Assembly (NCBI RefSeq): GCF_021390395.1
Contig: NZ_JAJUWT010000002.1
Coordinates: 310,001 to 374,000 of the forward strand
Source of the DNA: Saccharothrix sp. S26
GTDB taxonomy: Bacteria > Actinomycetota > Actinomycetes > Mycobacteriales > Pseudonocardiaceae
DNA: 64,000 nucleotides
Reading direction: 5' to 3'
Position 1 is the first letter of the stretch, and every line of letters begins with the position of its first letter. Both the position numbers and the translations under genes were made by a program. The notes beneath the pieces are model-generated. The model made no database searches and had not been told where the DNA came from. It worked only from the letters and a program-made list of their open reading frames with translations. Of this stretch, positions 25,967-38,093 are shown piece after piece.

Positions 25967-27463
<1,497 letters not shown>

Positions 27464-27536
27464 GGTTCCAAGGTGAGTACGCCCGTCATCTGACGGCCGG
27501 CGAGAGGTGGAACGATTTCGAATCGGGCTGGAACGG

Positions 27537-28142
27537 TCAAGCCGGCGGCAGCGCTTCGAGGCGGCGACGCACGTAAGCGAGATCCAACGAGCAGTGCCTC
27601 GCGATCCGTTCGTGCTGTCGCTTCTGCCGCTCCTCGACTTCCCGGTCGTCGGTCACGTACACCACGATGAGGGGCTTGGACCGTGCGGTGACCGCGTTGT
27701 TGACCGCCGCCCACAGCAGATCCCTGAATGTGCGCGGTCGACCCCAACAGACGTAGCGTTCCCGCACCTGGTCTGTGATCAAGCAGTGCATCGGCTTCTC
27801 CTTGACCGAGCCGGGCTTGATCCGCCACTCGTCACCGACCAACTCGGCGATGAACTCGTCAGGAGGCGACAGTCTCTTCGTCGCGTACGGGGCGTAGGAG
27901 CCGATGTTCTCGAGGGCTCGGGCGTACTCCTTCAACGGGCCGTCCTTAAGCCAGACGCGCATGCCCTCCGCTGTGTAGTAGTCCGCCAACTCCCCACCGA
28001 TCGCCTCGTCCTCGACCCACCGGGTGTAGTAGGCGGTCCGCTCGCGGGCGGGCACCCCTTCCCAGTCCAACGACCCCACTTGACGGTAGAGCTCGCGGAT
28101 GACGGAGTCCCTGATTTCCTTCGGTACGGTGATGTCCGGCAT
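27537..28142 (-). CDS. Defence-island protein of unknown function
   Basis: A 201-residue soluble protein beginning at ATG 28142 (AGGGGG just upstream). It is mostly helical, acidic then basic, with a conserved-looking WRIKPGSVKEKPMHCLITDQVRE region split by a strand, a CWGRPRTFRDLLW segment and a charged C terminus with EERQKRQHERIARHC. I do not recognise a domain with confidence. It starts 13 bases after the Vsr stop and ends the minus-strand defence operon, so it is probably an accessory, specificity or regulatory subunit of that system. Confidence 0.7.
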   Translation of the reverse strand: MPDITVPKEIRDSVIRELYRQVGSLDWEGVPARERTAYYTRWVEDEAIGGELADYYTAEGMRVWLKDGPLKEYARALENIGSYAPYATKRLSPPDEFIAELVGDEWRIKPGSVKEKPMHCLITDQVRERYVCWGRPRTFRDLLWAAVNNAVTARSKPLIVVYVTDDREVEERQKRQHERIARHCSLDLAYVRRRLEALPPA

Positions 28143-28155
28143 GCATCCCCCTTCT

Positions 28156-28899
28156 TCAGCGCTGCGCTGTGGCACGACCCAGTGCCGTGACGACCTGATC
28201 CACGACGGCATCCGTATCCTCGTGCTCCCAGCACCGGATCACCGTCCACCCGTGCTCGATCAGGGCTTGGTTGGTCTCGGCGTCGCGTCGCTTGTTGTCG
28301 AGGATCTTCGTCCCCCAGAACTCGGAGTTCTTCTTCGCCGGACGGTGGTGTTCTGGACAGCCGTGCCAGAAGCAGCCGTCCACGAACACCGCCAGCCGCT
28401 CTTTGGTGAAGACGATATCGGCGGTCCTCCGCAGTTCCGGCAGCGGTCGTACCGATACCCGATATCTCAGGCCGTGGGCGTGGAGCGCGGCGCGCAGTCG
28501 AAGCTCGGGGGTGGTGTCCCGACCCCGATTACCCCTCATCGAGGCTCGCACCTCACGCGACGACGCCCACGACTCGTCCGGGAGCGCCTCGTCGCGCACC
28601 AGACCCAGCGCGCGAGCCCTCTCCCACCCTTCGGTGAGGTTCGCCGATCGCGTGCCGTGCTCGACCGCACCCAGTGATCTCGAGATCGCGCGGTCCTGGT
28701 CCCGCCACCGCAGGTACGCGCGGATGATCCCCGATCCCTCGGACATCCTCAGCACGACGGTGCCCTTAGCGGTTCGTCCGGAACCCAGGTCCACGACACG
28801 GCGATGGGCGCCACCGGCCGCCCTGTCCTGTTCGGCGTCGACCAGTGCTCTCGCCCGGTTGGCCTTGGGTTTCCAAGCTCTCGTGGACTGACGGCTCAC
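28156..28899 (-). CDS. vsr: Vsr-like (very short patch repair) endonuclease with N-terminal extension
   Basis: A 247-residue protein from GTG 28899, whose GTGA overlaps the methyltransferase stop. The C-terminal 140 residues are a full Vsr domain: SWASS...MRGNRGRD, PELRLRAALHAHGLRYRV, the metal-binding Asp161 in TADIVF, the zinc-site and active-site block FVDGCFWHGC, FWGTKI and GWTVIRCWE. Vsr nicks next to T:G mismatches formed by deamination of 5-methylcytosine. The 100-residue N-terminal part (IIRAYLRWRDQDR then SANLTEGWERARALGL) is not in the E. coli enzyme and may be a DNA-binding module. In such islands Vsr may protect methylated sites or serve as the restriction nuclease. Confidence 0.88.
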   Translation of the reverse strand: MSRQSTRAWKPKANRARALVDAEQDRAAGGAHRRVVDLGSGRTAKGTVVLRMSEGSGIIRAYLRWRDQDRAISRSLGAVEHGTRSANLTEGWERARALGLVRDEALPDESWASSREVRASMRGNRGRDTTPELRLRAALHAHGLRYRVSVRPLPELRRTADIVFTKERLAVFVDGCFWHGCPEHHRPAKKNSEFWGTKILDNKRRDAETNQALIEHGWTVIRCWEHEDTDAVVDQVVTALGRATAQR

Positions 28900-30236
28900 G
28901 GTCGTTTCTCGGCGTCGTCGAGAACCGTCGAAACCGCCTTCGCGAACACCTCGCCCAACAGGACCGGGACGGCGTTGCCGAGTTGTTTCATCTGCTCGCC
29001 ACGAGGACCGCACAGTTCCCAATCATCGGGGAAGGTCATCACCCGTGCGGTCTCGCGGACCGTCATGTACCGGTGGTGGTAGGGGTAGGCGCTCGGTTTG
29101 TTGACGGGAGGAGCGTCGGCATCGGTGCCGATCAAAGTGTCGGTCAGCATCACCGACTCGCCGCCCGGGACACCGTGGACACCCGCCTTGACCGTCTTCG
29201 CGGGACGATCCAAATAATTCGGCGTGTGGCCGGGGTAGATGCCCGCATCCGGCCAGCCGATGTGCTCCTTGGGCATGTCGTCGTACTGCCGTCGGTCCAG
29301 TCGGGTCCAGGGGACATCGGGGAGCGGTTCGGTATCCGAGTCACCGGCCAGGGCGTCCCTCAGGGTCCGCCAAGGCTTCATCCCGTCCGAAGCCTCCTCG
29401 AGCGGCAGGACGGCCTCCGACCTGCCCATGATGTATTCCCTGACATGTTCCGGTACATCGGTACGCCGGTCGATACCTTTGTGGCGTTCCCAATACTCGC
29501 CCGACTGCATCGAGCGGATAAGCGCTCTCTCGGAATGAGTCGGCTTGACGGCCTGTCGTAGCAACTCCGCGTCGATGTCCAGGTCGCCTCGGAAACCGAC
29601 GATGATGATGCGGTTCCGAATCTGAGGCACACCGTAGTCGGCAGCATTCACGGGAAACGTGAAAACCTGGTACCGTTCGGTGGGTTTGACGTTCCCGCGC
29701 TGCTCTTTCAGCTTGAGGATAGCGTCGTGCTGGAGCCAGCTGGCCTCGGGGTCGCGCTCCTCGAACGGGAACTCCAACTCGCGGGTGATGTAGTCGAAGT
29801 AAGGCCTGAACGAGGGTCTGAGCAGACCGCGGACGTTTTCGCAGATGAACGCCTTGGGCTTGATCTCCCGGATGGCGCGGAACATCTCGGGGAACATGTT
29901 CCGCTTGTCCTCGTCGCCCTTCGCGACGCCCCCCAAGCTGAACGGCTGGCATGGAGGGCCGCCGGCGAGCAGGTCGACGGCACCTTCGAGGTAGCCCATC
30001 TTGAGGTCGCGAACATCACCGCGAACCAAGGGGATCCGTTCACCGGGTTCGGGGATGCGTTCTTCTTCGCCGCGCGGGGCAGCCACGTTGGCCTCGAGGG
30101 TGTCGCACGCGTACCTGACGAACTCGTTGAGCAGCAACGGCCGGAACCCCGAGCGGTGCACGGCCATCGCCAGGCCCCCGCCGCCCGCGAACAGCTCCAC
30201 CGACGTGCGTCCCGGCAGATCCGGTTCAGCCGACAT
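28896..30236 (-). CDS. dcm: DNA (cytosine-5) methyltransferase
   Basis: A 446-residue C5-methyltransferase. Motif I is VELFAGGGGLAMA (residues 13-25), motif IV GGPPCQPFS with catalytic Cys96, motif VI ENV (133-135), motif VIII QIRNRIIIVGF, and motif X KQLGNAVPVLLGEVFAKAV near the C terminus. A long target-recognition region lies between VIII and X. Start ATG 30236 was chosen over a longer frame. It overlaps vsr, the classical Dcm-Vsr pairing, and follows the Z1 helicase by 80 bases. It should mark host DNA as self for the linked restriction module; the recognition sequence cannot be read from here. Confidence 0.95.
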   Translation of the reverse strand: MSAEPDLPGRTSVELFAGGGGLAMAVHRSGFRPLLLNEFVRYACDTLEANVAAPRGEEERIPEPGERIPLVRGDVRDLKMGYLEGAVDLLAGGPPCQPFSLGGVAKGDEDKRNMFPEMFRAIREIKPKAFICENVRGLLRPSFRPYFDYITRELEFPFEERDPEASWLQHDAILKLKEQRGNVKPTERYQVFTFPVNAADYGVPQIRNRIIIVGFRGDLDIDAELLRQAVKPTHSERALIRSMQSGEYWERHKGIDRRTDVPEHVREYIMGRSEAVLPLEEASDGMKPWRTLRDALAGDSDTEPLPDVPWTRLDRRQYDDMPKEHIGWPDAGIYPGHTPNYLDRPAKTVKAGVHGVPGGESVMLTDTLIGTDADAPPVNKPSAYPYHHRYMTVRETARVMTFPDDWELCGPRGEQMKQLGNAVPVLLGEVFAKAVSTVLDDAEKRP

Positions 30237-30316
30237 GCGCGGGAGCCTACCGCGCCGTCGGCCGTCGTCACCGCGAGGTATGCGGGTTGTCCGCCTTGCA
30301 GGACGAGAAGATTCGC

Positions 30317-33172
30317 TCACGCGTCGACGAGCGCGTAGTAAGGCTTGTCCGGAATGGCCACCTGGTACACCAAGGGTTTGCGATCGAGCGGGAGCGTGCC
30401 ATCCGGCAGTTGCAGCCTGAATGCCATGACCACGCCGGTCGGGTGGCCATCAGTCGCGATGTCTAGCTTGAGCTTGTCCTTCTTCATCACCGGGTAGACG
30501 ATCGCACAACCCGAGGTCGGAGTCCTGCCCGGGATGCTGGCGATCGCGACGCGGTGCGCTGTTTCAGAGTTGCCGCGGATGCTGTGGTCTCCAAGCGTGG
30601 TCCGGCCGTGGACGGTGAACTCGCCGATGCCTCGGAGATTGACCCGCTTGCCGGTCTTCTGCTGGGGGAACACGACGTCCCAGCGGTCGATCAGCTCCTT
30701 GGGCAGGCTCGCTATCCAGGCGAGGTCTGCGGCGAACGTCTCCGGCGTCGCCCACTTCAGATCGCGCAGGACGGACACCATGTCCTCGTGGGACACTTCA
30801 CCGAGGAAGGCTTCGAAGGACCGGCGACCGTCCGTGAGGGAGGTGACCTGCCGCGCGGCCTCCAGCAGCGGCACGAAGGCGTCGATGTTGTGGTCGAGCG
30901 CTGCTTGATCGGTGAGCAACGGATAACCCGAGCTCGGCTCCTTGGTACGGGTTCGCCGCTCCACCAGTTTGGCGTTGTACATCTTGTTCGCGGCGGTCGG
31001 CCGAAGCCCGTGCCGGGCGACGAGCGGAGGGATGTCTTCGGGCGTGAACAGCGGGCGCCCGTCGACCATGACGGCGTACTGGCGCAGCTCCTCCCGGAAG
31101 TGTTCTTCATCGCGGCAGGCGGCTTCGAACGCGTCCCGGACGCCGGGGGTGATGAACAGGCGGACCAGGTCGCGGTACCCCTTGCGGAAGCCGAACCACC
31201 TCCCCATTTGCATCAGAGCTTCGGCGTGTCCGACCTTGCGGGAGTAGTAGGTGATGGTGAGACCTTCGACGGTGAAGCCGCGAGCGAGCTTGTTCCCGCC
31301 GACCAGCACTCGCCACACGGACCTCTTGTCGAAGTCCAAGTCCTCCTGCTCGATGTCCTTGTCGCTGTTCACCACCAGCACGGGGTTGCCGTTGGGCGCG
31401 ATCCTGCGGGCAGCCTCCCCCAGGAACCGGGTCAGGTCGTCGAACTTCGATGGCATCGGGTGCTTCAGATCGAGCGCTTCCGCCACCGGTGCGAAGTCGT
31501 CTTCGAACAGCGTCCGGAGCCGGCTGTGGGCGCGTCCACTCAGGTAACCGGCAGTCCGCCACAGTTCCTGGATGGTCTCCGCGCGCGACCGCTGGCCTGC
31601 CTTTCGCATCGTTTCGTGCACCAGCATCGTGTGGTGCTTGAACGGACCGGAGCCCTCAGCTTCCCGGTACAGCTTGAGGGCGGCGGTGAGGACGAACGAG
31701 TCGAGCGCCACCTGGAGTTCGGCGTCGTCCTCGTCCTGGCGGTCGTCCAGCAGTCGGAGGTGCGCCATCTCCTTCGAGTTGCGGAAGGTCCGCTCGACAT
31801 CGGGGTCGAGGTCGAGGTCGTGGAAGTCCTCCGCACCCATATAGCCGAGCGGCCGTTCCAGGGAGATGAGGTAGTCCTTGGGGAAGATGTCCTCCGCGTC
31901 CGTCGGGTCGACGAAGACGTTCGCGAACGGGGTGGCCGTGTAACCGATGTACTGGGCACGCGGGAGCAGTGCCAGCAGGTTGGACAGGTGCTCGTTGATC
32001 GCGGTCCGGTCCTTCTTGTCCTCGAGCCACTTCCGCGGATCGGTCGTGTTGACCGACGCCTGGTCGGACTCGTCGTCGATGATCAGCGCGGGGATGTTCT
32101 CCAGGCGGTCCGCGGTGTTTTTCAAGTCCTTGACGAGGTTGTTGAGGACACTGGCGTTCTTCTTGACGATGATCAAACGGGCGTCGCTGGTGAACAGGTT
32201 GTCGGGGTGCCACAACGGCTTCGTGCGATCCCGACGCTCGAACTCCAGCGCGGATCGTCCCTGTTGGAGGCGTCGGTAGTCGAATCTGCGGTTGGTCATC
32301 CGGTGGATGTCGGGCCTGCCGATCTGCGACGGCCACGCGCCGTGCCGGACGAAACGGTCGGCTACCCAGTCCTCGTCGTCCAGGTAGTCGATGAACTGGG
32401 CCGCGTCGGGGTCGCTCTCGTCGCTGCCGCGGAGGATGTTCTCCCGGCCGACCAACTCCATGTCCACCCGGCGCTGGGTTTGTTCGCGCAGGATGTTGGT
32501 GGTGCCTGTCATCACGATGACGAGGCGGTAGCCGGCGTCGATCGCTTTGGCGATCACACCGGTGAAGTTGGCGGTCTTGCCGCTCTGCACGTACCCGACC
32601 ACGAGCCCTTTTGTCTGCCCCGCCTTAGCTCGGGACGGGTCGATCAGGCGCTCGACGACCCGCGTGGTCGCTGTGTCCAGGTTGACGATCGCGTCGGCAT
32701 CCCAACGGCGCTGTTTGTGCAGGTAGTCGGCGTAATGTCCCCAGTAGAAGTCGCGCGCCTTCTTGACTTCGTCGGTGTACCACGGCTCCCACGGGCCTGC
32801 GATGACCGTGGTGCCGTCGCCCTTGGCGAGGGGGAAGTGGCGAGCGATCTCGGCAGCGGTCTCCGAGTCGAGCCCCAGCGCCTCGATCACCCGTGACCGG
32901 CGCTCCTCCGTGTTCGGCTCGGTGCCGGTGGTCCAAGAGTTGCCCTCGACTGGGGCGTTGTCCCACTTGGCGAGGTTCATGTGCAGATCGAGCCGGAGCT
33001 TGTCGTTGGGATCGGCCACTGCGAGGTGCTCCCTCAGCCGTCCTTCCGACACGTCGAGGCCGGGATCGAGGTCTTCGGCTTCCAACGCGGCGCGCTTGAC
33101 CAGGGCTCGTGGGGTGTCGCCCTCCATGGCGCGCAGCGCGCTGGTGTAGGCCCGGACGAATGGGGTGATCAT
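30317..33172 (-). CDS. Z1-domain superfamily 2 helicase-like ATPase
   Basis: A 951-residue protein. Walker A is GYVQSGKT (193-200), the DEAD-box-like Walker B is IIDDES (364-369), motif III is TATP (412-415), and motif VI-like QMGRWFGFRKGY is in the C-terminal half after GGNKLARGFTVEGLT, the hallmark of the Z1 family. ATG 33172 is used because it overlaps the previous stop (ATGA) and has AAGGA six bases upstream; ATG 33178 is possible. Z1 proteins are reported beside MORC/MutL-like ATPases and PD-(D/E)XK nucleases in restriction systems. It probably remodels or translocates DNA for the nuclease. Confidence 0.92.
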   Translation of the reverse strand: MITPFVRAYTSALRAMEGDTPRALVKRAALEAEDLDPGLDVSEGRLREHLAVADPNDKLRLDLHMNLAKWDNAPVEGNSWTTGTEPNTEERRSRVIEALGLDSETAAEIARHFPLAKGDGTTVIAGPWEPWYTDEVKKARDFYWGHYADYLHKQRRWDADAIVNLDTATTRVVERLIDPSRAKAGQTKGLVVGYVQSGKTANFTGVIAKAIDAGYRLVIVMTGTTNILREQTQRRVDMELVGRENILRGSDESDPDAAQFIDYLDDEDWVADRFVRHGAWPSQIGRPDIHRMTNRRFDYRRLQQGRSALEFERRDRTKPLWHPDNLFTSDARLIIVKKNASVLNNLVKDLKNTADRLENIPALIIDDESDQASVNTTDPRKWLEDKKDRTAINEHLSNLLALLPRAQYIGYTATPFANVFVDPTDAEDIFPKDYLISLERPLGYMGAEDFHDLDLDPDVERTFRNSKEMAHLRLLDDRQDEDDAELQVALDSFVLTAALKLYREAEGSGPFKHHTMLVHETMRKAGQRSRAETIQELWRTAGYLSGRAHSRLRTLFEDDFAPVAEALDLKHPMPSKFDDLTRFLGEAARRIAPNGNPVLVVNSDKDIEQEDLDFDKRSVWRVLVGGNKLARGFTVEGLTITYYSRKVGHAEALMQMGRWFGFRKGYRDLVRLFITPGVRDAFEAACRDEEHFREELRQYAVMVDGRPLFTPEDIPPLVARHGLRPTAANKMYNAKLVERRTRTKEPSSGYPLLTDQAALDHNIDAFVPLLEAARQVTSLTDGRRSFEAFLGEVSHEDMVSVLRDLKWATPETFAADLAWIASLPKELIDRWDVVFPQQKTGKRVNLRGIGEFTVHGRTTLGDHSIRGNSETAHRVAIASIPGRTPTSGCAIVYPVMKKDKLKLDIATDGHPTGVVMAFRLQLPDGTLPLDRKPLVYQVAIPDKPYYALVDA

Positions 33173-34170
33173 GTCCATCCTTGGAAGTCGCAGGCCGAGC
33201 GGATGATGCCCGGCGTCTTGTCCTCGTCCGCGAAGCCATCGAGATCGATCCGGTAGCGGATCGTCGGTATGCGGTCGATGACGACACCCCGGTCTCGCAG
33301 GTCGTCCGGAGTGAGGCGCGGGAAGGGGCCGGTCACGTGGTAACCGCGGCTCGCGGATCGCCGGGCCCAGCGCGTGGTCAGCCGTTCCCGATAATCGTCC
33401 CGCCAGCCGGAACGGGCGAGTGCGTCCTCGAAGTCGCCCTGGTGTCGACCGGGGCCGAGTTGTGCGGAAACGGCGTCGACGAGGCCGGGGAGGCTCGACC
33501 CTGTTCCCACGCCCGCCGAGGTGAGCTGGTGCGAAACCAGCCAGAGCGGACGCCCTTCCTTGGGCACCAGTTGGGTCAACGACTCGATCCAGTGCGTCCT
33601 CGACTCGGAGGTCGTCGTCTTGACCTCCACGTCGAGTTCGGGCAGTCCGAAGTCGTGCTCCTCCGCCAAGCTCCCACGCCATGCCTCGACCACCTTCACG
33701 GCACCCAGCCGCTCGATCAGACCGCCGAGAACGAGCAATTCCCCGAACAAGCCGATCTCACGTTCCCGGGTCAAGGCTTCGGGCGTCCGCAACAACGAGG
33801 ACATGCGGTCCAAGGTCGCGTGCAGTGCCCGAGCGGGCGACAGGCCGCCGAGCTGGACCCGGTCCGCTACCGAGCAGAGGATCGGGTAGGCGTCGTGGAA
33901 GAGGTCCCGAGCGGTGACGACCACCTCGAAGAATTGCTTCCCGTCACGCAGGGCGATTCGCGCGAGGATGTTGCGCAACTTGGTGTCGGGTGCGTCCGCT
34001 TTGCCCGAGACCGCGACCCTCAGACCGAGCTCCGGCACCCGGGGCTCGATGAAGATGAACGTGTCCGGTGCCCCGGCGACCGCGAGCGTGACAGGAACCC
34101 CGCTGTCGAGCATGCGGTCGAAGTTCTCGGCAGAGACGTGGCGCTCGTCGATCCTCGGGTCTGCGTTCAT
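33169..34170 (-). CDS. PD-(D/E)XK-motif nuclease, DUF4420-like
   Basis: A 333-residue protein. The nuclease core appears around residues 138-186: Glu144 in GLFGELLVLGGL, DF at 173-174 and the ExK element LDVEVKTT (Asp180, Glu182, Lys184), the signature of the PD-(D/E)XK proteins encoded beside Z1 helicases. The rest is mixed alpha/beta without recognised domains. Its start overlaps the GHKL ATPase stop and its stop overlaps the Z1 start, so all three are translated as one coupled unit. Likely role: the DNA-cutting subunit. Confidence 0.85.
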   Translation of the reverse strand: MNADPRIDERHVSAENFDRMLDSGVPVTLAVAGAPDTFIFIEPRVPELGLRVAVSGKADAPDTKLRNILARIALRDGKQFFEVVVTARDLFHDAYPILCSVADRVQLGGLSPARALHATLDRMSSLLRTPEALTREREIGLFGELLVLGGLIERLGAVKVVEAWRGSLAEEHDFGLPELDVEVKTTTSESRTHWIESLTQLVPKEGRPLWLVSHQLTSAGVGTGSSLPGLVDAVSAQLGPGRHQGDFEDALARSGWRDDYRERLTTRWARRSASRGYHVTGPFPRLTPDDLRDRGVVIDRIPTIRYRIDLDGFADEDKTPGIIRSACDFQGWT

Positions 34171-35681
34171 TGGCGTTCAGCCCGTGCCGCAGCCGTCAGG
34201 ATCGTCTGCCACAGCGCGATGTTGTCCTTGTCCTTCGGTCCTAGGTGACTGCCCTCGAACACGTTCGAGACCAGAAGGTAGAGCAACGACTTCACCAGCG
34301 GGAGGTCATTCAGGCCGCCGTGCTTGCCGCCCAGCAGCATCCTGCGGTAGCGCTTGTTCAGCCATAGGGTGCGCCTGTCGCGGTCGACGTGGAACAGTAG
34401 GTCGTCCGTGAACGTGTCCCAGCGTATGTCGATGGGTTCCTCGCCGGATTTCTCCGGGATCTCGCGCTTGATCGTATCGCGCACGCGGGGCGGCAGGCCC
34501 GCGCCCGGGTACACCATGGGCGTCCGCTTGGTCGAGCGCTTCCTCGACTCGGTGTACACCGCCTCGGCCAGGTCGAAGTACTTGTCGAGGCTCATACCGT
34601 CGGCTGATCTGGCGGAGGCCGCCAACCGGGCGAACTCCGGTCCGACGTTCACCCGCGACTTTTCCGGATTCATGCGGAACAGGCCGATGATGTCGTTGTC
34701 GATGTCCACCTCGACCCGAGCGAGCCGGAGCTTCGGATTGGGCGCGTGCACACCCTCCCAGCCGCCGGCTTGCAGGAGGCGGTCCCGCCGGTAGAAGTAA
34801 AGCCCTTGGTGGCTGACCGGGTTCCCGGTCAGCTGGAACGAAGGATTCCCCGACTGACCGGGCCATAGGTGACAGCGGAAGGCCAATTTCAGGTCACCTT
34901 CCTCGGCCGTCAAGGTCTGAGGGAAGTCGGGTCGACCGGATCGCGCGTAACCGAACGGGTTCAGCGGCGTGACAGGGATCGGTGGTCCCACGAACCCGGT
35001 GTCGACCTCGTGCACGTCGAAGTCGACGCTCAACCGGTCTTGTTCGAGGAATCGGTGGAAGACCATGCCGATGTGCTGACACGCGTTGGTGATCATGTGG
35101 TCGATGAACTCGTCGGTCCGACGCGGGTCGTCGGTGACGGGGAACGCGACCACGTCGTCCCAGCGGATCACCGTCCCGCTGCCACGCAGTTCGACGCCCC
35201 AGTCCCGATCCAGTTCCGACTCGGCGAATCGACGGGGAACCACGTCGCAGGCGAAGCTGCGGCCGCCGTCGGCCGCCAAGCGCCAACGCCGTCCGACCGC
35301 TTCGTGGCCCGCGCTCCGCGACATCACCGTCAGGATCCTGGCCTGGCTGAACGACGCGGCTTTGAGGCCCAACCCGAAGTGGCCGAGGTCGCCGTCGCCG
35401 TACTCACGTCGGCCGCCCACGGTCATCGCGGAGTCGATCGCGTCGGGCGACATGCCGTTTCCGTCATCGACCACGTAGAGCGAGGTCAGGCGCTCGCCGA
35501 CCTTGACGATTCGCACGAGGACATGTGTCGCGCCCGCGTCGATCGAGTTGTCGACCAGGTCGGCGAGAGCCGTCGGCAGCGAGTGGTTGCGACCGATGGC
35601 GTCCATCGCCCGAGGGTCGGGTGGTAGCTCGATGCTTCCCTCGGTCGGTACGGTCAGGCTCCACTCGGTCACAGGCTCCAC
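34167..35681 (-). CDS. GHKL ATPase of MORC/MutL-like type
   Basis: A 504-residue protein from GTG 35681, chosen for an AGGAG five bases upstream; the open frame reaches 35777. The GHKL motifs are clear: N box ADLVDNSIDAGA (Asn45, Asp48), G1 box VDDGNGM (Asp72, Gly74, Gly76), G2 box GHFGLGLKAAS (100-110). The C-terminal 300 residues resemble the S5-fold and insert of bacterial MORC relatives. Such ATPases dimerise on ATP and may clamp DNA. It opens the defence operon, with a TATAAT box about 140 bases upstream, and is the likely sensor or loader for the nuclease and helicase encoded behind it. Confidence 0.9.
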   Translation of the reverse strand: MEPVTEWSLTVPTEGSIELPPDPRAMDAIGRNHSLPTALADLVDNSIDAGATHVLVRIVKVGERLTSLYVVDDGNGMSPDAIDSAMTVGGRREYGDGDLGHFGLGLKAASFSQARILTVMSRSAGHEAVGRRWRLAADGGRSFACDVVPRRFAESELDRDWGVELRGSGTVIRWDDVVAFPVTDDPRRTDEFIDHMITNACQHIGMVFHRFLEQDRLSVDFDVHEVDTGFVGPPIPVTPLNPFGYARSGRPDFPQTLTAEEGDLKLAFRCHLWPGQSGNPSFQLTGNPVSHQGLYFYRRDRLLQAGGWEGVHAPNPKLRLARVEVDIDNDIIGLFRMNPEKSRVNVGPEFARLAASARSADGMSLDKYFDLAEAVYTESRKRSTKRTPMVYPGAGLPPRVRDTIKREIPEKSGEEPIDIRWDTFTDDLLFHVDRDRRTLWLNKRYRRMLLGGKHGGLNDLPLVKSLLYLLVSNVFEGSHLGPKDKDNIALWQTILTAAARAERQ

Positions 35682-36290
35682 CCCTACTCCTGTCAGGTGC
35701 ACCGGCTCGCTGGTGCGACAAGCCGCGCTGTACCCGATATAGCCGACGGTGGCCTTTTCGTTAGCCGAAGTTACCAAGATGATGTCGCCAACTCGAGTAT
35801 CGGGCTGAGCCTCAGTCCATTATAATGCCCCGCCCAGTTCGTTGATGAGCAGCGAGTCGTCTGTTCGGTCTGGAGTTGACCTCGGCGATGCTCGTGTCGA
35901 CCCAGGTCGGTAAGGGTCCGTTGATCCGACTCCTCGCTGATGGCAAGGGTTCGTCTCGGAGTCTGCGGCGAGACGAATTCACATCGCGGTCCGTCCTCTC
36001 GCACGACCCGGCGTCCGGTCGGCTCCTCGCGGCGGCACCGGTGCGACTTTCGCTCCGAGTTCTTGCCGGAGTCGACGTGCTGCGGCAATGGGTCACCGAC
36101 CGGGTCGCGGCGGGCGAGTGTGGCGATGAGGACGTCGGACAGCAGGCTCCGATCAGGCCCGATGGTGCGCACGGCGGCCAGGGGTCGGACTCCCAGGCCG
36201 AGGTCGGCGGGGTACTTCCGGTGGCATCGGCGCAACGTGTTCAAGGGTCGGACCGGAGGGAGTGTCGGAGGGGTCCGTTAGGATCGCGCG
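35682..36290. other. 609-base region between defence island and recQ
   Basis: The left 150 bases are A/T-rich for this genome and hold the presumed defence promoter. Further right, a minus-strand frame from 36244 to about 36000 (opening MNTLRRCHRKYPADLG, then VRPLAAVRTIGPDRSLLSD) has strong third-position G+C but no family resemblance and no good ribosome site; its right part loses that bias. It may be a short gene or a remnant. No transposase or integrase remnant could be recognised. Confidence 0.4.
35819..35826 (-). promoter_or_regulatory. Probable -10 box of the defence operon
   Basis: ATTATAAT contains a perfect TATAAT on both strands, rare in DNA of this composition. Read on the minus strand it is about 140 bases before the GHKL start. 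No clear -35 hexamer is seen, so strand and use are uncertain. Confidence 0.4.
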
Positions 36291-38093
36291 ATGGCTTCGC
36301 AAGAGGTGCTGCGAAGGATTTTCGGGTACGAGTCCTTCCGCGGGGACCAGCAGGAGATCGTCGACCACGTCGTCTCGGGCGGGGACGCGTTGGTGCTCAT
36401 GCCCACCGGGGGCGGGAAGTCGTTGTGCTACCAGATCCCCTCCCTGGTGCGTGAGGGGACCGGTGTCGTCGTCTCGCCGTTGATCGCGTTGATGCAGGAC
36501 CAGGTGGACGCGCTGCGCGACCTCGGGGTGCGGGCCGGGTTCCTCAACTCGACGCAGTTCCCCGACGAGCGGGCGCTGGTGGAGGCCGAGTTCCTGGCCG
36601 GCGAGCTGGACCTGCTCTACCTCGCCCCGGAGCGCCTGCGCACCGAGCAGACCACCCGGCTGCTGGAACGCGGCAGGATCGCCCTGTTCGCCATCGACGA
36701 GGCGCACTGCGTCTCCCAGTGGGGCCACGACTTCCGGCCCGAGTACCTGGCGCTGTCGCACCTGCACGAGCGGTGGCCGCAGGTGCCGCGCATCGCGCTC
36801 ACCGCGACCGCCACGCCGGCCACGCACGCCGAGATCGCCGAACGCCTCAACCTCGGTGACGCCAAGCACTTCGTGTCCAGCTTCGACCGCCCGAACATCC
36901 AGTACCGGATCGTGCCCAAGAACGAGCCGAAGAAGCAGTTGCTGGAGCTGCTGCGCACCGAGCACGCGGGCGACGCGGGCATCGTCTACTGCCTGTCGCG
37001 CAACTCGGTGGAGAAGACCGCGGAGTTCCTGACCCAGAACGGCATCCCGGCCCTGCCCTACCACGCGGGCCTGGACGCGGGCACCCGCGCGCGCAACCAG
37101 TCGCGGTTCCTGCGCGAGGACGGCCTGGTGATGGTCGCCACCATCGCGTTCGGCATGGGCATCGACAAGCCGGACGTGAGGTTCGTCGCCCACCTCGACC
37201 TGCCGAAGTCCGTGGAGGGCTACTACCAGGAGACGGGCCGCGCGGGCCGCGACGGGCTGCCGTCCACCGCCTGGCTCGCCTACGGCCTGCAGGACGTCGT
37301 GCAGCAGCGCAAGATGATCGACGACTCCGAGGGCGACCAGCAGCACCGCCGCAAGCTCATGGCCCACCTGGACGCGATGCTCGCCCTGTGCGAGACCGTC
37401 GAGTGCCGCCGCGTGCGACTGCTCGACTACTTCGGCCAGTCCTCTACGCCGTGCGGCAACTGCGACACGTGCCTGGCCCCGCCCGAGACGTGGGACGGCA
37501 CCGTGCCCGCGCAGAAGGTGCTGTCCACGATCGTGCGGTTGCGCAAGGAGCGAGGGCAGAAGTTCGGCGCGGGCCAGACGATCGACATCCTGCTCGGCCG
37601 CAAGACCGCCAGGGTCATCCAGCACGACCACGACCAGCTGAAGGTCTTCGGCATCGGCACGGAGCTGAACGAGAGCGGCTGGCGCGGCGTGGTCCGCCAA
37701 CTCCTGGCGCAGGGCCTCCTCTCGATCGAGGGGGAGTACTCCATGCTCGTCACCAACCCCGCGAGCGACGAGGTGCTCTACCAGGGCCGCAAGGTGCTGA
37801 TGCGGCGCGAGCCGGAGCGCGCGGCCAAGGTCAAGACCGCCAAGGCGGCCAAGAGCGCGCCGGTGGACCTGCCCGCCGAGGCCGCACCGGTGTTCGAGAA
37901 GCTGCGCACGTGGCGCACGGCGCAGGCGCGCGAGCAGGGCGTCCCGCCGTACATCATCTTCAACGACGCCACGCTGCGGCAGATCGCCGCCACCACACCG
38001 TCGACGTTGGACGAGCTGAGCGCGATCAGCGGCGTCGGCGAGAACAAGCTCGCCAAGTACGGTCAGCAGATCCTGGACACGTTGAGCGCATGA
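36291..38093 (+). CDS. recQ: ATP-dependent DNA helicase RecQ
   Basis: A 600-residue RecQ helicase with the full domain order. The helicase core has Walker A PTGGGKS (38-44), DEAH at 136-139 and the aromatic-rich loop after it. The RQC zinc site has Cys residues in CETVECRRVRLLDYF and CGNCDTC. The winged helix and an HRDC domain (last 80 residues, ending SAISGVGENKLAKYG) follow. It unwinds forks and recombination intermediates. It is encoded directly beside the defence island in the opposite direction, and its stop overlaps the start of the next gene (ATGA at 38090). Confidence 0.96.
   Translation: MASQEVLRRIFGYESFRGDQQEIVDHVVSGGDALVLMPTGGGKSLCYQIPSLVREGTGVVVSPLIALMQDQVDALRDLGVRAGFLNSTQFPDERALVEAEFLAGELDLLYLAPERLRTEQTTRLLERGRIALFAIDEAHCVSQWGHDFRPEYLALSHLHERWPQVPRIALTATATPATHAEIAERLNLGDAKHFVSSFDRPNIQYRIVPKNEPKKQLLELLRTEHAGDAGIVYCLSRNSVEKTAEFLTQNGIPALPYHAGLDAGTRARNQSRFLREDGLVMVATIAFGMGIDKPDVRFVAHLDLPKSVEGYYQETGRAGRDGLPSTAWLAYGLQDVVQQRKMIDDSEGDQQHRRKLMAHLDAMLALCETVECRRVRLLDYFGQSSTPCGNCDTCLAPPETWDGTVPAQKVLSTIVRLRKERGQKFGAGQTIDILLGRKTARVIQHDHDQLKVFGIGTELNESGWRGVVRQLLAQGLLSIEGEYSMLVTNPASDEVLYQGRKVLMRREPERAAKVKTAKAAKSAPVDLPAEAAPVFEKLRTWRTAQAREQGVPPYIIFNDATLRQIAATTPSTLDELSAISGVGENKLAKYGQQILDTLSA

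Follow-up and report, generated by a model that had tools for sequence, protein, structure and literature searches.

What could be the function of a compact island of six genes which, in the 64,000-nucleotide stretch of the Saccharothrix sp. S26 genome analysed here (hereafter "the window"; contig NZ_JAJUWT010000002.1, positions 310,001 to 374,000), occupies positions 27537-35681 of the minus strand and encodes a MORC-type GHKL ATPase, a DUF4420 protein, a Z1-domain helicase, a C5-cytosine DNA methyltransferase, a Vsr endonuclease and a member of an unnamed family (genes 1 to 6, respectively)? The locus is probably an ATP-dependent, multisubunit restriction-modification operon acting on DNA that lacks the 5-methylcytosine (5mC) mark of the host, with Vsr repairing T:G mismatches. 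The gene content, the conserved motifs, the recurrence of the six genes and their co-divergence in two groups are direct observations, and it is from these that we infer each of the biochemical steps.

Open reading frames (ORFs) and Pfam matches place the six minus-strand genes in the order and at the coordinates in which a first-pass annotation, made from the letters of the DNA, had listed them (Table 1), and the junctions that it had called tight turn out to be slightly tighter: with the likeliest starts, four of the five are overlaps of 4 nucleotides and the fifth is a gap of 13, two of the four overlaps hinging on where the methylase and Vsr begin, which is uncertain. For gene 4 the internal ATG at 30236 (446 amino acids) is an equally plausible start, gene 5 has an alternative shorter start at 28746, and gene 6 could begin further out, at 28211, although a purine-rich site lies ahead of 28142. 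The clustering is not a product of chance because the set of six is found again in other genomes. When genome contigs were scanned with the Z1 protein, at least 589 loci were confirmed, the best 80 of which, a sample biased to close relatives, were examined; the full set in the order of the window is present in five of these 80 (L022, L023, L024, L025 and L078) and in L130, and L139 has all six genes with gene 6 moved between Z1 and the methylase, so that, as the first-pass annotation required, the genes do occur together elsewhere, for the most part in an unchanged order. A GHKL ATPase lies no more than 6 kb from Z1 in 78 of the best 80 loci, a methylase in 56, Vsr in 52 and DUF4420 in 43, the misses including loci on contigs that end early; DUF4420, where detected, is always adjacent to Z1 and on the same strand. 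At the level of the genus, the six-gene set is present in 5 of 25 genomes, that of the window counted, and a Z1 match of any kind in 14 of the 99 genomes of a search of relatives, which may overlap those of the locus set. The closest named relatives of the locus are in the Pseudonocardiaceae, L022 being a locus of Goodfellowiella.

Table 1. Genes of the island and its two flanking neighbours (coordinates of the window)
Feature	Coordinates	Strand	Remarks
Gene 1, MORC-type GHKL ATPase	34167..35681	-	504 amino acids, GTG start; HATPase_c_3 E=1.8e-21
Gene 2, DUF4420, putative PD-(D/E)XK nuclease	33169..34170	-	333 amino acids; DUF4420 E=2.1e-38
Gene 3, Z1-domain superfamily 2 (SF2) helicase/ATPase	30317..33172	-	951 amino acids; Z1 E=5.8e-54
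Gene 4, C5-cytosine DNA methyltransferase	28896..30320	-	474 amino acids; DNA_methylase E=4.4e-50
Gene 5, Vsr very-short-patch mismatch endonuclease	28156..28899	-	247 amino acids; Vsr E=1.2e-17
Gene 6, unnamed family	27537..28142	-	201 amino acids; shared with GHKL/Mrr-helicase systems
Left flank, AAA ATPase	25967..27448	-	neighbour outside the system; abuts recQ where the AAA-recQ site is empty in two genomes
Right flank, recQ	36291..38093	+	housekeeping neighbour; recQ equivalog, 776 bits

The conserved motifs of the individual proteins are in place. The ATP-binding motifs of gene 1 are present, N45 and G100/G103/G105/K107 being kept in 93 of 94 aligned homologues (the 94th has a gap), and the label MORC, rather than paraMORC, given in the first-pass annotation was apt because the protein bears the MORC signature GhXhhpXXRhl of Iyer, Abhiman and Aravind (2008; PMC2292703; this and the papers cited below are used here for parts of their text) as GLYFYRRDRLL at residue 293; the pattern is found in 93 of the 94 homologues and arises by chance in 19 of 2000 shuffles of the protein. 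In gene 2, E144, D173, E182 and K184, forming an E-D-ExK arrangement, are invariant in all 56 aligned homologues, and the structure model of the protein has a predicted local distance difference test score (pLDDT) of 91.2. The Walker A residues (G, K, T), the DDE and the Q/R/G of QxxRxFG in gene 3 are kept in 96 of 96 aligned homologues, QMGRWFG at 655 corresponding to the hhQXuRhFG-like motif of superfamily II helicases. The PCQ, ENV and QxRxR motifs of the methylase are intact, and gene 5 matches the Vsr model TIGR00632 with 115.6 bits, above the cutoff of 97.85.

How could these proteins operate together? The methyltransferase would mark the host DNA with 5mC; as for Vsr, enzymes of this kind repair the T:G mismatches left by deamination of 5mC, a biology that fits such repair better than an attack on DNA, so that gene 5 would mend the mismatches which are the mutational cost of 5mC. 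The effector, consisting of the GHKL ATPase, the DUF4420 nuclease, the Z1 helicase and gene 6, would engage DNA devoid of the mark. By analogy with CglI, the effector may search for unmethylated sites and cut; the window likewise has a Z1 motor and a C5-methylase, with PD-(D/E)XK in place of PLD-B3. CglI is a complex of a nuclease and a Z1 ATPase that is triggered by an unmethylated site, cuts near it and consumes ~170 ATP per second per monomer, translocation having been proposed (PMC4267653; PMC5737866), and its site-specific cleavage requires ATP hydrolysis by the Z1 protein (PMC4267653). The Z1 motor of the window would hydrolyse ATP and move on DNA, as proposed for CglI, while the MORC ATPase might act as an ATP-gated DNA clamp or loop-holder, MORC ATPases having been proposed to loop DNA (PMC2292703); the PD-(D/E)XK protein would cut the DNA, and gene 6, as adaptor or site reader, could couple the ATPase/helicase to the nuclease or to the target.

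The distribution of gene 6 extends beyond the Z1 systems. Matches to it were found in 13 of 298 genomes of the order, that of the window included, two of them being short or weak. Eleven gene 6 loci (the window and ten others) were inspected: three are of the Z1 type (the window, L130 and L139; type A) and eight (L131-L138; type B) encode a larger, different GHKL ATPase and a helicase, with neither Z1 nor DUF4420. The helicase of L131, the one protein submitted to Pfam, is an Mrr-ResIII fusion, which the helicases of L132-L138 and of L026 match with E values of 6.4e-181 or better; a methylase and Vsr lie within the stretch in all 11 loci. Furthermore, gene 6 relatives adjoin a GHKL ATPase and a helicase in 17 of 17 other loci checked, among them the five complete Z1-type loci of the best 80, L130, L139, L026 and L131-L138. 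Three relatives, annotated "hypothetical protein", are on plasmids of Rhodococcus, Ruegeria and Pseudosulfitobacter and overlap by 4 bases the preceding "DEAD/DEAH box helicase" gene; these helicases match that of type B (E 1.4e-127 or better) and the "ATP-binding proteins" match the type B GHKL (6.8e-113 or better), while on the Pseudosulfitobacter plasmid an insertion sequence element separates GHKL from the helicase and the annotation shows neither a methylase nor Vsr nearby. The GHKL-helicase-gene 6 trio therefore reaches another phylum. A pattern scan of viral contigs for close gene 6 relatives gave none. That gene 6 is essential to Z1 systems was rejected, as it lies within the Z1 neighbourhood in 5 of the best 80 loci; a sixth, L026, also has the gene, but within a neighbouring type B locus.

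The co-divergence of the genes was evaluated by Mantel tests on pairwise identities in type A (MORC/DUF4420/Z1; seven loci, the window being left out) and type B (GHKL/Mrr-helicase; ten loci, with L026, whose methylase is cut, and L188, which has no methylase, left out). In type A, gene 6 follows Z1 (rho 0.97, p 0.0012), DUF4420 (0.86, p 0.0022) and GHKL (0.78, p 0.027), its value with Vsr is 0.64 (p 0.055), and the methylase follows Vsr (0.95, p 0.0005). In type B, gene 6 follows GHKL (0.90) and the helicase (0.87; p 0.0002 for both), the values for methylase and Vsr are 0.09 (p 0.26) and 0.29 (p 0.13), respectively, and the methylase again follows Vsr (0.59, p 0.0005); the pattern was already the same with the eight type B loci used prior to inclusion of the plasmids. 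Judging from these identities, the six genes appear better read as an effector module and a modification module having partly separate histories, a view which retains the restriction-modification island of the first-pass annotation but replaces its one joint six-gene system. In addition, an exchange of methylase/Vsr cassettes between effector types is suggested, although not proven, because the joint methylase+Vsr tree groups L139, of type A, with L135/L136, of type B (support 94/93), yet type A as a single clade is not rejected by the approximately unbiased (AU) test (p 0.098). Indeed, the methylase of L139 is 75% identical to those of L135/L136 and 63-67% to the others of type A, whereas its gene 6 shares 49-60% identity with those of type A and 30-35% with those of type B.

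What, then, is gene 6? Most likely it would be a subunit of the effector, an adaptor or site reader; membership in the methylase cassette is disfavoured, since its divergence follows GHKL/helicase. The role of adaptor or reader is proposed because two different effectors, having a GHKL ATPase and gene 6 in common, would obey one mark if the methylases of L139 and of L135/L136 acted on a common site. A wider proposal, to be taken as tentative and somewhat doubtful, is that this unnamed family represents a dedicated subunit of GHKL-powered restriction machines, common to the MORC/DUF4420/Z1 and GHKL/Mrr-helicase effectors, that these machines are two-part, with an exchangeable methylase/Vsr cassette, and that gene 6 adapts the effector to cassettes of one specificity. 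In the alignment (17 rows) a W-x-K-D-x-P-x-K-E core is conserved, as are tryptophans towards the C-terminus, and a KP is invariant. No match at E 0.01 was obtained in Pfam, NCBIfam or PADLOC and none among PDB sequences, and PHROGs gave a chance-level match alone (E 0.083). With an AlphaFold2 model built from seven sequences (mean pLDDT 71.9), Foldseek yielded nothing at E <= 0.001, the top entry being an archaeal protein (E 0.0026, root-mean-square deviation 13); EcoT38I, ranking sixth at E 0.058, was too weak a match to use, and neither a fold nor a catalytic activity is claimed.

Several observations weigh against the restriction-modification reading and its division into two modules. A methylase is absent within 6 kb in 24 of the best 80 Z1 loci, some on short contigs, so that modification is not always linked, and most Z1 loci are without gene 6. 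DUF4420 went undetected within 6 kb in 37 of the 80, and in loci of this kind GHKL and Z1 often abut directly, according to gene calls made with a simple script. Comparison of the DUF4420 model with the PDB by Foldseek gave nothing at E <= 0.001 and no PD-(D/E)XK structure, and for this reason the nuclease assignment rests on the motifs and the Pfam name; a sequence search gave a single, chance-level match (E 0.89). As to the modules, the correlation of gene 6 with the methylase in type A (rho 0.67, p 0.042) is lower, not absent, that of helicase with Vsr in type B (0.50, p 0.035) runs counter to a clean split, and the loci are few, the rho values being compared without a test of their difference.

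The rival that fares best, albeit rather unlikely, is an immunity resembling MZA, in which GHKL, Z1 and DUF4420 would sense phage by something other than missing methylation and the methylase/Vsr pair would be a separate neighbour. The partly separate divergence of methylase/Vsr and the 24 loci just mentioned speak in its favour, as does the homology of the window's GHKL, Z1 and DUF4420 proteins to MzaB, MzaC and MzaD of mzaABCDE, a system of Gao 2020 referred to as validated by Miller (PMC9523054). By sequence comparison, the ATPase, helicase and nuclease core is remote kin of this anti-phage system; the scores, however, are far below the curated cutoffs (134 bits against 850 for gene 1 and MzaB, 262 against 1500 for gene 3 and MzaC, 79 against 420 for gene 2 and MzaD), there is no AIPR/MzaE protein among the six, the methylase, Vsr and gene 6 being present instead, and the order GHKL-DUF4420-Z1 differs from the GHKL-Z1-DUF4420 of a second, MZA-like locus of the same genome. 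The latter (genome G000, contig C26, L140:4130-13788), which also supports the rival, consists of a divergent methylase, GHKL, Z1, DUF4420 and AIPR and is a fuller MzaB-C-D-E-like set (402 bits for MzaB, 743 for MzaC, 121 for MzaD and 418 for MzaE, which exceeds the scores of the window's proteins but falls short of the curated cutoffs), so that the host carries both arrangements, the MORC-Z1 six-gene one and the AIPR-type MZA-like one. On the other hand, this AIPR-type locus, too, adjoins a methylase, as do, within 6 kb of Z1, 56 of the best 80 genome loci and 12 of the 15 Z1 loci on viral contigs, and the genes of the window overlap by 4 nucleotides if the GTG start is right. In the 15 viral-contig loci GHKL and Vsr lie within 6 kb in 14 and 11, respectively, the order is GHKL-Z1-DUF4420 in 13, unlike the window, and the next gene belongs to an AIPR-containing cluster in 11.

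Decidedly improbable is a DNA-repair operon, in which the MutL-like ATPase, Vsr and helicase would act on mismatches where DNA is methylated. A methylase next to Vsr makes a repair pairing, the ATPase weakly resembles MutL in sequence and a MutL/Vsr parallel was raised by Iyer et al. (PMC2292703), but against such an operon stand the presence of another predicted nuclease and that of a Z1 helicase, a type familiar from restriction systems (PMC4267653). The patchy presence, insertion hotspot and low G+C described below, as well as the NaeI-type restriction enzymes adjoining some relatives, also argue against repair. Least credible of all is a type IV-like system attacking foreign-modified DNA, with the host methylase unrelated to it, for although the sister system sharing gene 6 has an Mrr domain, which is frequent in modification-dependent enzymes, the host itself would tend to become a target through its linked 5mC methylase, the motifs of which are intact, and no modification-reader domain appears among the Pfam, PADLOC and NCBIfam matches of the six proteins.

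The putative restriction-modification operon lies in the interval between an AAA gene and recQ (27449-36290), an insertion hotspot whose cargo varies. Of the 25 genus genomes, all carry recQ and 16 also the AAA gene, the two being within ~15 kb of each other in 11 of these 16. The site is empty in G013 and G001, where the matches to the two proteins are 138 and 159 bp apart, respectively; in six genomes it is filled by a different 1.5-6.9 kb of DNA, and the six-gene island sits there in G000, G003 and G024, with ~6 kb extra on the recQ side in G024; in G001 the island is elsewhere and the site empty, and in G009 the island is also elsewhere, the AAA gene not being near recQ. This variable occupancy agrees with the transfer suspected at first, as does the composition: the G+C of the island is 0.655 against 0.711 and 0.717 of the left and right flanks, and none of 396 stretches of the same length off the island in the window is as low. 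The host genome comprises 9.08 Mb in 54 contigs. No tRNA was found in the 64-kb window, no Rfam match between 25000 and 39000, no clear long repeats at the island boundaries and no integrase in the island. The AAA gene was rejected as a seventh member, since 15 of the other 24 genomes of the genus have a relative of it, 11 of these lacking a Z1 match, its profile matches in 1 of 116 loci, ~8 kb from Z1, and it lies 138-159 bp from recQ at the two empty sites. The cargo in relatives (L141-L150) differs by species, with an HNH-domain ORF in one; 8 of 10 cargo ORFs tested, which were picked by eye and some of which are perhaps not genes, had no Pfam match.

Further observations concern the partners of Z1. 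NaeI-like relatives occur in eight Z1 loci, seven of them without DUF4420, the protein of L047, on which alone Pfam was run, being NaeI (PF09126, E=1.8e-118). The actinobacterial L041, L047, L056, L059, L069, L076 and L077 combine a GHKL-Z1 pair, no detected DUF4420 and an NaeI-like protein within 9 kb, five of the seven with methylase and Vsr, as if the pair could serve other nucleases. Five other Z1 loci (L082 and L086-L089) stand beside DUF1156 (methyltransferase-like) and DUF499/HEPN_Swt1 proteins, a partner set resembling restriction-modification (Pfam run on L087 only).

Among 98 aligned methylase-like rows, two of which are gapped at the catalytic cysteine position, 18 conserved, full-length C5-methyltransferase homologues lack this cysteine, the residue being R in 17 and S in 1 (loci L035, L037, L043, L046, L048-L051, L054, L057, L063-L066, L073, L080, L099 and L029). 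In 17 of the 18 loci the homologue follows Z1 on the same strand at a distance of at most ~0.5 kb, Vsr intervening in some, and a cysteine-bearing methylase is encoded in each of the 18 as well. The 13 best matches of a search of the class (394 genomes; further loci L153-L165) likewise lack the cysteine by motif pattern; a cysteine-bearing methylase adjoins 11 of them, DUF6339, an unnamed protein and a helix-turn-helix protein are near 9, and Z1 is in the stretch for 4, one of the 13 (L178) appearing to be from the same genome as L080. The homologue is possibly a portable pseudo-methylase module reading DNA; a role as reader for Z1 systems was dropped, the 13 copies being mostly without Z1 nearby. 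A literature search on such a module found no paper.

Restriction systems of the MORC type were predicted in the literature as early as 2008, and the present locus is compact, with intact motifs and with empty and occupied sites among its relatives. If gene 6 is indeed an unnamed subunit common to two helicase classes, it would provide a way into how the MORC-like ATPases of bacteria select their DNA, a question that is open also for the MORC proteins of eukaryotes. In literature searches no experimental test was found of a system joining Z1, DUF4420 and methylase, CglI being without DUF4420, and no mention of gene 6 was found in the passages of text used from Iyer 2008 and Miller 2022.

The locus belongs to a known, predicted kind of gene set, and the kind itself is not new. 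The text of Iyer et al. (PMC2292703) describes MORC operons of a third helicase type having in common with the window the MORC ATPase, a distinct superfamily II helicase, the predicted E-D-ExK nuclease, the cytosine methylase and Vsr, without mention of gene 6 in the passages used, so that the tie to these operons proposed in the first-pass annotation is well founded. The kind was since predicted in more detail as the putative defence "Type I" of Miller 2022 (PMC9523054), a six-gene locus having, like the window, a core of Z1, PD-(D/E)XK and cytosine methyltransferase and associated with DNA-repair endonucleases; the text names the core only, and it is for the core that the likeness holds. Taken as a whole, the earlier interpretation stands as to the kind of island, hotspot and co-occurrence, and is amended in that the kind has since been predicted, the core is remote kin of MZA, two modules replace one and Vsr is better seen as a repair enzyme. 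An island of Corynebacterium that combines Z1 and DUF4420 with an EcoRII-like enzyme and a Dcm-like methylase is on record in a 2017 study (PMC5379612). CglI and NgoAVII share with the window the Z1-domain SF2 ATPase, the C5-methyltransferase and a separate nuclease subunit, but this subunit combines PLD and B3, for which the six proteins have no Pfam match, and the systems comprise three genes, with no MORC ATPase, Vsr or gene 6 in the passages used (PMC4267653; PMC5737866). Finally, the type B loci, which resemble the Rad25-like helicase group in the text of Iyer et al., have in common with the window a gene 6 relative and a methylase paired with Vsr. They differ from it in their GHKL subfamily, devoid of the MORC motif in the one protein tested, and in having an Mrr nuclease fused to a ResIII helicase (by Pfam in L131) instead of Z1 and DUF4420.

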